Shown here: positions 31,147-35,859 of the stretch, one piece after another
Layout of the letters: each line of letters begins with the position of its first letter
How positions within the stretch are numbered: position 1 is the stretch's first letter
Assembly: GCA_002255935.1 (NCBI GenBank)
Contig: NKIO01000001.1
Span: 124,001-188,000 of the forward strand
Length of the DNA: 64,000 nt
Source: Comamonadaceae bacterium PBBC2
GTDB lineage: Bacteria > Pseudomonadota > Gammaproteobacteria > Burkholderiales > Burkholderiaceae_C
Direction of reading: 5' to 3'
Notes under the pieces: model-generated
The model's input: only the letters and a program-made list of their open reading frames with translations
Told to the model about the DNA's origin: nothing
Databases searched by the model: none
Position numbers and translations under genes: made by a program

Positions 31147-31968
31147 ATGCACCAACGCACCGTCTTTTTCGTCTCCGATGGCACCGGCATCACCGCCGAA
31201 ACCTTTGGCAAAGCCATCCTGGCGCAATTTGAAGCCAAAGTTCGCCAAATTCGCTTACCGTTTGTTGACACAGTGGACAAAGCCCACCAGGCCGTGCGCC
31301 AGATCAACCATGCCGCCACCGTGGAGGGCAACCGCCCCATCGTCTTCACCACACTGGTGAACATGGAGGTGCTCAAAGTGATTCAAGAGGGATGCCAGGG
31401 CATGCTGCTGGACATGTTTGGCACCTTTGTCAACCCGCTGGAGACGGAGCTGGGTATCAAGTCCAACCACCGCATTGGCCGCTTTAGCGATGCCAGCAAA
31501 AGCCAGGAGTACCAGGACCGGATTGAGGCCATCAACTTCTCATTGGCGCACGACGATGGGCAAAGCAATCGCGACCTGGAACAAAGCGACGTGATTCTGG
31601 TGGGCGTGAGCCGCAGCGGTAAGACGCCGACATCGCTGTACCTGGCGATGCAATACGGCCTGAAGGCCTCCAACTACCCGCTGATTCCGGAAGACTTTGA
31701 ACGCCGTCAACTGCCGCCTGCACTTATGGCGCACAAGGCGAAGATTTTTGGGCTGACGATTCAACCCGAGCGGCTGGCCGAAATTCGCAATGAGCGCAGG
31801 CCGAATTCCAAATACGCGTCACTGGAAAACTGCCGCCATGAGGTGGCTGAGGGTGAAGCCATGATGCGACGCACTGGCATACGTTGGCTATCCACGACGA
31901 CAAAGTCGATTGAAGAGATTGCGACGACCATCCTGCAGGAAATTCATCCGGATAGGTTGGTGTATTGA
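31147..31968 (+). CDS. ppsR: PEP synthase regulatory protein (bifunctional kinase/pyrophosphorylase, DUF299)
   Basis: A 273-residue regulator that phosphorylates PpsA with ADP as donor and removes the group by phosphorolysis. It starts [19 protein letters not shown] and has the P-loop-like [20 protein letters not shown] and later [20 protein letters not shown]. Divergence from ppsA across a 180-bp gap is the usual arrangement and places both promoters there; no clear operator is seen in it. A copy of repeat A follows its stop. Confidence 0.95.
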
Positions 31969-32316
31969 GGGCTCTCCAGCGCGGCTGACTCTGGAAAAAC
32001 GCTACTGTTTTAGGAGCTGCTCCCGCACTATCCATGGGCCGAATGGCCTATTTGGCTTGAAATTTGAGGGACAGCGTTGTTTTTCGTCGTTCGGCTCGAT
32101 GTTGAAGCCAGAAACGAATGTTCGGATTGGAGAATGGTGTATTTCTGCAATGCGGGCGAAAGCTGTCGTTCACGACAGTCGCCCAATTTCAGTCTCATTG
32201 AGTCTGTGTACATGATTTAGCATCCGCCGGTCTCGGCTCGTCTGCCAGAATATCGAGCATCAGCCAGTTTATCGAGCACTTGTTGGTGCTCTGGACATTA
32301 CGTTAACCATCATTTC
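31969..32316. other. Non-coding accessory stretch before the integron-like cassette
   Basis: Apart from a repeat A copy, I see no gene. It holds a short palindrome (CTGTCGTTCACGACAG, 32163-32178), a hairpin GAGCACTTGTTGGTGCTC (32274-32291), and ACGTTAACC about 10-15 bp before the next ATG, which looks like an integron core site. Confidence 0.5.
32000..32068 (+). repeat. Dispersed repeat family A, copy 7
   Basis: Core at 32015-32034 with a full right half (GGGCCGAATGGCCTATTTGGCTTGAAA) that makes this one of the best-preserved copies. It lies after ppsR. Confidence 0.88.
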
Positions 32317-32706
32317 ATGAGCAGTGCTACCTCAGTCACTATCGTCGCAGCAGTGTTCACGTTAGCTGCCTGTGCCGCGAATCCACATCAGAACCCAAAG
32401 GAGTTTTGGCCCCCACCGGATACGTCAGGCGCCCGGCTCAGATTCGCGGAAATCGCCACACCCTCGCTTGCTACAGAAATTGAAGAAGACGAAGTGGTCG
32501 GTATCGTGCAAGAACAGGCTCGGTTCTGTGATACCGACCCATGGCGGCAGTTCAAATGGATAACTACCAAGCAACTGCTCTTGATGTGCGCATGTCCCGG
32601 TCGCTATGGAACAAACATGGCGCTCTTCGCTGTGGACCGGTTGAATGGCGGGCAGTGGCGTGTTGTGCAGCAGTATTCAATCCCGACCGCCCAGACTGTG
32701 CCATGA
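32317..32706 (+). CDS. Putative lipoprotein carried on an integron-type gene cassette
   Basis: A 129-residue protein that I cannot assign. The N-terminus is a lipoprotein-like signal with a lipobox (VAAVFTLAACAANP, Cys about residue 19), then a Pro/Asp-rich region and a hydrophobic C-terminal half with three cysteines (RFCDTD, LLLMCACPGRYG). Its base composition looks less GC-rich than the neighbours. The ATG is just after a GTTAACC core-site match, and an attC-like structure begins about 20 bp after the stop. This is the compact layout of a mobile gene cassette. Many cassette genes encode unknown small secreted proteins. Confidence 0.65.
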   Translation: MSSATSVTIVAAVFTLAACAANPHQNPKEFWPPPDTSGARLRFAEIATPSLATEIEEDEVVGIVQEQARFCDTDPWRQFKWITTKQLLLMCACPGRYGTNMALFAVDRLNGGQWRVVQQYSIPTAQTVP

Positions 32707-32727
32707 AGCGCAGCAGCAAAGATGATT

Positions 32728-32812
32728 GTTAACAAGTTGCTCGTCACGGACACGCACCAGCAGTCGCCGCTGCGCGGCACTTGCTGCGTGCCAGTGGCCC
32801 CCAACGTTAAAA
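32728..32812 (+). mobile_element. attC recombination site (59-base-element type)
   Basis: Outer simple sites TTAAC and GTTAA enclose two imperfectly complementary arms. The left arm (TTAAC AA GTTG ... GTCAC ... CACGC ... GCA ... CCGC) pairs with the right arm read backwards (TTAAC GTTG ... CCAC ... CACGC ... GCA ... CCGC), with extra bases on one side, as in true attC sites. The centre CGCCGCTGCGCGGC resembles known attC centres. The length of about 84 bp is in range. No integrase is present in the window. Confidence 0.72.
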
Positions 32813-33035
32813 CAGCATTTTGAATGGCCGCTTCGGAGCGGCAGCTAAGACCGCTTTGGGCCTCTCAGCGACTTTCAGCAACCTGATCCAGCTGTGCGTC
32901 AAAGTTGCCGAATGCATGCGCCTCCCACGTGTTGACCAATGAATACGTCTAAAAGCGGGGCGAGCGCTGACTAAACTGATCGCACCGAGTTCGCGGTGTA
33001 AAGCGTCTCCCTACCGCCCGAAAGAGTGCCGAGAA

Positions 33036-33102
33036 CCGCTATGTTTTTCATAGCTACTCCCGCACATTCCACCTGGGCCCCAGCCCCATTTGACTCAAAA
33101 TT
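33036..33102 (+). repeat. Dispersed repeat family A, copy 8 (diverged)
   Basis: Variant core AGCTACTCCCGCACATTCCA at 33052-33071, with the left half GCTATGTTTTTCATAGC forming a perfect small dyad. It lies next to the decayed ahpF fragment, as copy 9 lies next to intact ahpF. Confidence 0.78.
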
Positions 33103-33117
33103 CTCCAAAAATCGGGC

Positions 33118-33250
33118 TAAAACGGCTTCCTGCGGCTTGAACAGAATCACCGGCTTGCGAATCGCGTCGTCAATTGCGCTAAGCGCGGTCTGTAGCCTCC
33201 GTTTGCGGCAATCACAATTTACCTGAACGGCACAGTGGTGCAGTTACTTT
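33118..33250 (-). pseudogene. Decayed copy of the 3' end of ahpF
   Basis: The minus strand reads CTTVPFR-stop-IVIAANGG and, after a frameshift, TALSAIDDAIRKPVILF. Intact AhpF ends [16 protein letters not shown] and [18 protein letters not shown]. At DNA level CGGCAATCACAATTTACCTGA aligns with CAGCAATCACGATTTGCTTGA. Only the last 40 or so codons are present, with an in-frame stop and a frameshift, so this is a clear gene remnant. Confidence 0.8.
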
Positions 33251-33298
33251 CCAGAGTTGACTTAGTCCAGCAAGATCTTCGTGACCATAGGGTTTTCA

Positions 33299-33316
33299 AA
33301 TACAGATATCTGTATT
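33299..33316. promoter_or_regulatory. Palindromic operator before vapB
   Basis: AATACAGATATCTGTATT is a perfect 18-bp palindrome 12 bp before the antitoxin ATG. Ribbon-helix-helix antitoxins normally bind such sites to repress their own operon. Confidence 0.68.
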
Positions 33317-33328
33317 AAAGTGTCAACC

Positions 33329-33586
33329 ATGAAAACCACGCTCAACATTCACGATACGCTACTCCAAGAGGCAAAAGCCTTCGCTGCGCAGCAGCGCACG
33401 ACGCTGACAAAGCTGATTGAAGAAGGTTTGCGTATGCGTTTGCAACCCAAGCAAGCTGATAAACGAAGCACCGTCGCCATCAAGCTGCCAACCTTACCCA
33501 GTAAAAAAGGGCGCGGCCTCCAGCCGGGTATTGACCCGCTGTCTAACAAGAGCTTGTACGACGCAGCAGACGGCTTGCCATCTTGA
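33329..33586 (+). CDS. vapB: VapB-type ribbon-helix-helix antitoxin
   Basis: An 85-residue antitoxin. The N-terminal ribbon-helix-helix is visible as MKTTLNIHDTLLQEAKAFAA followed by TTLTKLIEEGLRMRL; the flexible C-terminal half should wrap the toxin. I use the ATG at 33329, directly after the palindrome; the track start at 33281 would place coding sequence across the operator. Its stop overlaps the vapC start (TTGA), so the pair is translationally coupled. Confidence 0.87.
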   Translation: MKTTLNIHDTLLQEAKAFAAQQRTTLTKLIEEGLRMRLQPKQADKRSTVAIKLPTLPSKKGRGLQPGIDPLSNKSLYDAADGLPS

Positions 33587-34029
33587 AGACGTATTTTCCA
33601 GATATCAATGTGCTGATCGCCTCTGCGCGTGAGGACCATAGCACCCACGCTGCCGCCAAAGCGTGGTTAGCCCAGGCGGCGCTGGATGCGCGCAATGGCC
33701 TGTGCAACATTGCCTTGCCCATGTTGGTGGTGTCGGGCTTTGTGCGCTTGGTCACCCATCCAAAGATCATGAGTCCGCCCAATACACCGGACGAAGCATT
33801 GGCGTACATCGACGCGTTGTTGGATGTCCTACAGATCAACGTGAGTGACGCGCAAACTTGGGCGACCTTCCGGTCTTTAGTTTCCCGCCAACAACTGAGC
33901 GGAAATGACATCCCCGATGCATGGTTAGCCAGCTATGCCGAAGCCACGGGTGCCGCAGTGGCCACCTTTGACAAAGGTTTTAAAAAGCTGCTGCCACGGT
34001 CACAGGTGATTCTGCTGAGCCCACGCTAA
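33583..34029 (+). CDS. vapC: VapC-type PIN ribonuclease toxin
   Basis: A 148-residue PIN-domain endoribonuclease of the VapC class. The acidic active-site residues are visible in FPDINVLIASAREDHSTH (Asp near residue 7), in the central segment around LSGNDIPDAWLASYAE, and in VATFDKGFKKL near the C-terminus. The start is a TTG overlapping the vapB stop. The pair lies between a decayed ahpF 3' end and intact ahpF, which suggests arrival by an insertion that duplicated flanking DNA. Confidence 0.88.
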   Translation: MKTYFPDINVLIASAREDHSTHAAAKAWLAQAALDARNGLCNIALPMLVVSGFVRLVTHPKIMSPPNTPDEALAYIDALLDVLQINVSDAQTWATFRSLVSRQQLSGNDIPDAWLASYAEATGAAVATFDKGFKKLLPRSQVILLSPR

Positions 34030-34192: not shown

Positions 34193-35788
34193 TTAAGCCG
34201 GGACCGCCTCTTCAACCTTGGCTTGAACTACTGGCGTTCGAATCAGGTGATCAAAGGCACTCAGCGCCGCCTTGGAGCCATCACCCGCAGCAATCACGAT
34301 TTGCTTGAACGGCACGGTGGTGCAGTCACCTGCAGCAAACACGCCGGGCACGTTGGTGTGGCCCTTGGCGTCTACCAAGATTTCGCCGAACTTGCTCAGG
34401 TCGATCGTGCCGCGCAGGAACTCAGTGTTGGGCACCAGGCCGATTTGCACGAACACGCCTTCCAGCGCCACGTGGTGTTCCACACCGGTCGTACGGTCCT
34501 TGTATTTCAGGCCATTGACCTTGCCGTCGGCTCCCGTGATTTCAGTCGTCTGCGCGTTGGTATGCACCGTCACGTTGGGCAGGCTGTTGAGCTTGTTGAC
34601 CAGCACGGCGTCGGCCTTGAGCTGGTCGGCAAACTCAATCACGGTCACATACTTCACTACGCCTGCCAAGTCGATGGCAGCCTCGATACCCGAGTTACCG
34701 CCACCGATAACCGCAACATCCTTACCCTTGAACAGCGGTCCATCGCAATGCGGGCAGTAGGCCACGCCTTTGTTTTTGTATTCCTGCTCGCCGGGCACGT
34801 TCACATTACGCCACCGTGCGCCGGTGGACAAGATCACCGTCTTGGATTTGAGTGAGCCGCCGTTGGCAAGCTTCACTTCAATCAGGCCGCCCACTTGCGG
34901 TGCTGGCACCACGGCCTGCGCCATTTGCAGGTTCATGATGTCCACACCGTAAGAGCGCGTTTGTGCTTCTAGCGCAGCCGCGAATTTGGGGCCATCGGTT
35001 TCCTGCACGGAGGGGTAATTCTCAATCGCCATGGTGTCATTGGTCTGGCCGCCAAAGCGCTCAGCCGCCACACCCACACGGATGCCTTTGCGCGCGGCAT
35101 ACACCGCCGCCGCCGCGCCTGCGGGACCACCGCCGATGATCAGCACGTCATACGGGTCTTTGGCGGACAGCTTGGCCGCGTCCTTGGCCGCAGCACCAGT
35201 GTCCAGCTTGGCCACAATTTCTTCGACCAGCATGCGGCCGTTACCAAACAGCGCACCATTCAAATAGATGCTGGGCACGGCCATGATTTCGCGCTCGGTC
35301 ACTTCGGCCTGGAAGGCCCCGCCTTCGATGACGGTGGTTTTAACCTTGGGGTTGAAGATGGCCATCAGGCTCAGCGCCTGCACCACGTCCGGGCAGTTGT
35401 GGCAGGTCAGGCTCATGTAGACCTCGAAATTGAAGTCTCCGTCCAAGCCTTTGATCTGCTCAATCACTTCGGGCTCCACCTTGGGCGGGTGGCCGCCGCT
35501 CCACAGCAGGGCCAGCACCAGGGATGTGAACTCATGGCCGAGCGGCAGACCCGCAAAGCTTAAAGAAGTGTCCGTGCCAGCGCGCTTGAGTGAGAAGGAT
35601 GGCTTGCGCGCATCGGTGCCGTCATAGGCCACGCTGATCTTGTCGGCGCGCAAGCTTTGAATAGTTTGCAGCAGCTCGCGCATCTCGGCAGAGTTGCTGT
35701 CATCGCCCAGCGACGCCACGATCTCGATCGGTAGCGTGACGCGTTCCAGGTAAGCGGCGAGCTGGGATTTGAGGGTGTCGTCTAGCAT
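34193..35788 (-). CDS. ahpF: Alkyl hydroperoxide reductase subunit F
   Basis: The flavoprotein disulfide reductase that regenerates AhpC with NADH. The 531 residues contain two N-terminal thioredoxin-like folds with the CxxC of [14 protein letters not shown]. They also contain the FAD domain ([21 protein letters not shown]), the NADH domain ([18 protein letters not shown]), the active-site CxxC of [10 protein letters not shown], and [21 protein letters not shown] use the ATG at 35788 with its AAGGAATCACC ribosome binding site; the track start at 35830 is inside the upstream terminator. It follows ahpC. Confidence 0.96.
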
Positions 35789-35811
35789 GGTGATTCCTTT
35801 GAATTTTGGCG

Positions 35812-35859
35812 AAAAAAAGCCGGACGGCAAGGTGCTAAGGCACCTTGACGCTGTCCGGC
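35812..35859 (-). terminator. Terminator between ahpC and ahpF
   Basis: On the minus strand GCCGGACAGCGTCAAGGTGCC TTA GCACCTTGCCGTCCGGC forms a long hairpin followed by TTTTTTT, only about 35 bp after the ahpC stop. It should reduce read-through so that ahpC is made in excess of ahpF. Confidence 0.85.

Follow-up and report, generated by a model that had tools for sequence, protein, structure and literature searches.

Organisation of the locus

The window analysed here, a 64-kb stretch of Comamonadaceae DNA, lies in contig C8 of an assembly that is a metagenome bin (3.73 Mb, 95% complete, 8.7% contaminated). Along it follow, in order, the gene for a PPDK regulator (Kinase-PPPase; 31147-31968, + strand), a core sequence GTTAACC, a short open reading frame (ORF), an attC structure, a partial duplicate of the 3' end of ahpF (about 33100-33260), a vapBC-like pair encoding DUF6364 and PIN-domain proteins (33281-34029), and ahpF itself (34193-35830, - strand). 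The bin also holds second copies of the PPDK-regulator gene (G000:C31:18598-18941) and of ahpF (G000:C81:54551-54706), with 72% and 87% identity respectively, which indicates that it is mixed. Together with the level of contamination, these duplicate copies make both the host of the contig and the lack of intI from its genome uncertain.

Downstream of the region of main interest, between positions 33031 and 34329, the vapBC-like pair is flanked on one side by the partial ahpF duplicate and on the other by the true ahpF, and the same 42-nt extragenic repeat accompanies both. This arrangement suggests that the pair was inserted by duplication.

The attC site

The structure that follows the ORF, described initially as an 84-bp element with TTAAC/GTTAA ends, is a real attC site at 32727-32812 on the + strand. 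Its R'' box (TGTTAAC) occupies 32727-32733, L'' 32739-32751, L' about 32788-32798 and R' (GTTAAAA) 32806-32812, with GCCGCtgcGCGGC at the tip of the structure. The L'' arm and its extrahelical bases are intact, whereas the R and L' boxes have diverged; R'' and R' depart from the strict RYYYAAC/GTTRRRY consensus at two positions and one position respectively, and the L' arm, GTGCCAGTGGCCCCC, differs from the GTGCCGGACAGCGCC of its attC family. The divergence of this arm suggests that the site would now work poorly.

Folding of 32727-32812 alone is mildly unusual (z about -2), and an Rfam search returned no attC family with a meaningful score. A strict consensus finder (RYYYAAC/GTTRRRY, 6/7 pairs) overlooks the site because its R boxes have diverged. 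In view of this mild folding support and the miss by the strict search, attC sites were harvested from IntI-bearing relatives. The closest is an 87-nt site in the array of a genome of the same genus, G387 (L090), with 82% identity over 65 nt; its local score of 67 compares with 33 for the next best among the loci then compared, on both strands, and with at most 26 for shuffled sequences. A pattern drawn from the common left arm occurs at 44 places in GTDB genomes. Most of these places are in Burkholderiales, among them Rhodoferax and Polaromonas, and nearly all of the Burkholderiales matches have attC anatomy.

A covariance model, R1, was built from 38 Comamonadaceae attC sites, comprising pattern matches and L090, with the window excluded. 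The 38 sites align without gaps and share invariant AAC, TTGCTCG and CGGACACGC elements, which are partly fixed by the search pattern. Covariation supports their structure: nine pairs have changed on both sides, compared with 5.7 in shuffled alignments, and 90.9% of cells are paired, a share that does not exceed 42% when the structure is slid along the alignment. R1 recovers tandem arrays, such as that of L109 with at least seven sites above 40 bits spaced a few hundred bases apart, and it also finds attC sites beside known intI genes.

Applied to the cassette, as had been proposed when the locus was first described, the model gives a strong match of 61.8 bits (E 4.5e-19) that spans model positions 1-87, with the boxes and extrahelical bases in place, and only 15.1 bits on the - strand. 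This is the sole significant match in the window and in the whole assembly, where the next best scores 17.3 bits (E 0.36); the count of one attC is that of R1, which could miss attC sites of other families. We conclude that the model match and the homology to the G387 site settle the identity of the attC, where fold energy alone is not decisive.

Among the Comamonadaceae arrays, a 60-nt attC site is letter-identical in two that lie beside intI (L059 2464-2523 and L062 11143-11202); it resembles the aadA1 type.

The cassette and its ORF

Two G|TT cores bound a gene cassette of 504 bp (32303-32806, + strand; TTAACC at its start and AACG at its end). It carries an ORF for a putative lipoprotein of 129 residues (MSSATSVTIVAAVFTLAAC) at 32317-32706, in the same direction as the attC, with its ATG at 32317 and its stop at 32704-32706. 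The ORF thus begins 14 nt inside the cassette, near the G32302|TTAACC core, and ends 20 nt before the attC. Core, short ORF with a lipobox and attC structure are therefore all three present in the compact order that the preliminary description had recognised. The R'' box matches the cassette's own 5' core at six of seven positions both ways, a comparison that does not discriminate, against seven of seven in the cassette of G438 discussed below.

The lipobox, LAAC (consensus [LVI][ASTVI][GAS]C), lies at residues 17-20 with no positively charged residue before it; the product may be an outer-membrane lipoprotein. The protein is as unfamiliar as it first appeared. It matches nothing in Pfam, NCBIfam or the PDB, and a single-sequence structure prediction is of low confidence (pLDDT 56). 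No relatives were found in 400 other genomes of the family or, by a peptide-pattern scan, in GTDB species, nor on plasmids, phages or viral contigs. Conservation of the ORF and its flanks in collinear order among relatives, which would have spoken against a mobile cassette, is thus not seen (0 of 400), and the absence of the ORF from the family genomes and GTDB species scanned is that of a mobile element. The ORF has a GC3 of 0.59, below the values of the adjacent PPDK-regulator gene (0.71) and of ppsA and ahpF (0.74), a difference that acquired DNA would be expected to show. A sigma-70-like promoter was not seen nearby.

Beyond the attC, a weak motif match marks the start of the following sequence (32806-32833, + strand), in which GCATTTTGAATGsCyGCTT also directly follows an attC in G402, a genome of the same genus. 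A second cassette, since lost, may have begun here.

The attI site

Upstream of the cassette lies an attI site, at about 32220-32308 on the + strand. Its core, GTTAACC (32302-32308), can be written TGCTCTGGACATTAC|GTTAA, and alignment with other cores places the recombination point after G32302. Two direct repeats precede it, CCAGAATATCGAGCA at 32245-32259 and CCAGTTTATCGAGCA at 32264-32278, which are identical at 13 of 15 positions, together with an inverted pair formed by GAGCAC in repeat 2 and GTGCTC at about 32286-32291. Direct repeats and an inverted pair before the core are the layout expected of an attI, as known from attI1.

Homology points the same way. In a flank search against fetched loci, the 60 bp that lead up to the core are similar to sequence preceding the first cassette in other integrons: L139 (82% over 62 nt, E 2e-10), L121 (78% identity) and L113 (25 of 27 nt identical), in the last of which a fragment of intI adjoins the attI. 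Two loci with a complete intI, L144 (Rhodoferax antarcticus) and L127, have the last ten bases of the site, ACATTACGTT, ahead of their first cassette, and also show the paired-repeat layout at the same place. The window site therefore combines homology to sites between intI and a first cassette with direct repeats and a core. It follows that the cassette is the first, attI-proximal one of a platform that has lost its integrase. Of the preliminary description, the reading as an integron cassette with an attC holds, and its placement at a secondary site or at the end of an array does not, since the DNA upstream is attI.

Copies of this attI were sought on plasmids and phages, and of the attC on plasmids, and none was found. 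Short matches to the attI query in ten more genomes of the genus (L202-L211) proved not to be attI sites; eight (L202-L205 and L208-L211) are one conserved coding segment, and those in L206 and L207 are short and unrelated.

Six integrons, some of which have lost intI (L178, L113, L127, L114, L079 and L080), have a LexA-like CTG-N10-CAG box 120-121 nt ahead of the attI core. The window has a LexA-like box as well, CTGTCGTTCACGACAG at about 32163-32178, but its distance to the core is 139 nt instead of the 120-121 nt of the relatives, and it was not counted as evidence.

A further feature of these sites is an ORF of 20 codons that overlaps attI in seven Comamonadaceae integrons (L113, L114, L121, L127, L139, L140 and L144). 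It begins 58 nt before the core G, in most cases with a Shine-Dalgarno-like AGGAG or GGAG, and in five of the seven the core itself forms the stop (CG|TTAA or CG|TTAG), so that an incoming cassette supplies the stop codon. In the window this frame is open up to the TAA, but the start and the Shine-Dalgarno sequence have been lost. The ORF resembles ORF11 of class 1 integrons, which is a translation aid, and a conserved leader of this kind would extend such an aid to chromosomal integrons.

Integrase loss in the window and its relatives

No functional intI adjoins the attI, and no IntI-like translation beyond chance occurs within 1.5 kb upstream of the core. Nor does any gene of the assembly, a mixed bin, pass the cut-off for IntI: the best match to TIGR02249 reaches 83.8 bits of the required 265, and the gene concerned, in contig C13, reads as a XerD-type recombinase. 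The initial remark that no integrase is visible is borne out by this search.

IntI above the cut-off is found in 2 of 90 genomes of the genus, compared with 129 of 301 genomes of the family. Sites of attI type with no recognisable intI within 1.5 kb occur in L121, L139, L178 and L201, and also in L114, L119, L140 and L147, with some near contig ends. G411, G409 and G402 likewise have one or a few attC sites and no intI above the cut-off. The genus thus seems to keep remnants of decayed integrons. Pseudogenes make up about one third of surveyed intI genes (PMC2426708), and the picture of repeated integrase loss, with attI and cassettes persisting, is in line with this high share.

Origin of the lone cassette

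We are confident that 32220-32812 is what remains of a chromosomal integron, namely attI and the first, now only, cassette, the integrase gene having been deleted. This reading is carried by the attC and attI homology, the cassette layout, the finding of no intI close to the site and no IntI passing the cut-off in the assembly, and the absence of the ORF from relatives. The order of events may be pictured as follows. A 504-bp cassette would have been present as a circle, and an IntI, resident or supplied in trans, would have recombined the bottom strand of its attC, in folded form, with attI at G32302|T32303 to produce the order attI, cassette, attC. Later, intI would have been lost along with the beginning of the attI leader and the remainder of the array, leaving the cassette frozen between the PPDK-regulator gene and the vapBC-like pair next to ahpF. 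Against this reading stand the departure of the R boxes and L' arm from consensus, the failure to find an empty attI, or an attI with intI, at the exact locus, and the mixed nature of the bin, which is contaminated and holds the PPDK-regulator and ahpF genes a second time.

A second copy of the site, in another species of the genus, raises the question of whether an integrase-free unit of attI and cassette has itself moved between loci. Positions 32214-32312 of the window match G438 over 99 bp with 90.9% identity (G438:C118:2121-2219; L201, L214), where an attI without intI carries one cassette encoding a GNAT acetyltransferase, whose R'' box (GGCTAAC) is exactly complementary to its 5' core (GTTAGCC). 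The G438 copy adjoins a dehydratase gene, in a locus unrelated to that of the window, and outside these 99 bp the window has no match in the 14 kb of G438 contig with which it was compared. Among the loci compared, the window and G438 alone share the 25 bp that immediately precede repeat 1, and none of the intI-bearing attI sites examined has them upstream. The same truncated attI at unrelated places in two species, with different cassettes (a lipoprotein-like ORF and an acetyltransferase), is what a moving unit would leave. However, there are two instances only, and an ancestral loss of intI with later rearrangement of the genome accounts for these facts too, so that we consider movement of the unit unlikely. 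The wider proposal, that integrase-free units of attI and a single cassette reach new sites in the chromosomes of this genus, through an IntI acting in trans or in some other way, we regard as equally doubtful; if they do spread, attI would be a mobile landing pad and not only a fixed part of an integron.

Insertion of a lone cassette by IntI in trans into a secondary site outside any integron (attG) would account for the single attC and for the lack of intI in the neighbourhood. It is largely refuted by the attI homology, since the 60-100 bp upstream, with their direct repeats and core, are homologous to the attI of several integrons and the cassette does not lie in DNA that is neither attI nor attC; we consider it very improbable. 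That the structure is a chance hairpin or a transcription terminator after an orphan gene, as a fold with a z of only about -2 might allow, has a negligible likelihood and is refuted by the match to a model built without the window (E 4.5e-19), the homology to array attC sites, the asymmetry between strands (61.8 against 15.1 bits) and the attI upstream.

Understood as an integron remnant, the locus shows that a lone cassette in an integrase-free genome can be traced to a lost integron through its attI, and that integron decay and insertion at a secondary site can thereby be told apart. With this family of attI and attC sites as a tool, integron loss can be mapped across the Comamonadaceae.

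Comparison with known systems

Loot et al. 2024 (cited in PMC12444791) are said to have described single cassettes at attG sites, inserted by IntI in trans. The window cassette resembles these in being solitary, chromosomal and without an adjacent intI, but differs from them in sitting at an attI-type site. The integrons of Rhodoferax, Polaromonas and Acidovorax (L144, L127, L109, L113 and L139) share with it the 87-nt attC family and the type of attI core; unlike the window, L144 and L127 retain a complete intI, and the array of L109 is still longer than one cassette.

Clusters of attC sites lacking integrases (CALIN; PMC9024848) are similar in having attC without an integrase. By the default of IntegronFinder 2 a CALIN has at least two attC sites without intI, so that the window, with one, falls outside this class, but single-attC cases can be true positives (PMC9024848). 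A CALIN with its own attI has been reported in the Shewanella prophage M16-3 (PMC9892861).

A likeness in both components, attI and attC cassette with the integrase lost, exists to sedentary chromosomal integrons whose intI is lost or broken, the 'pseudo-integrons' of the In0/CALIN continuum. The window differs from these in that intI is absent rather than frameshifted and that one cassette is left. The relic is of a known and ordinary kind, and many such relics can be found in this bacterial group.
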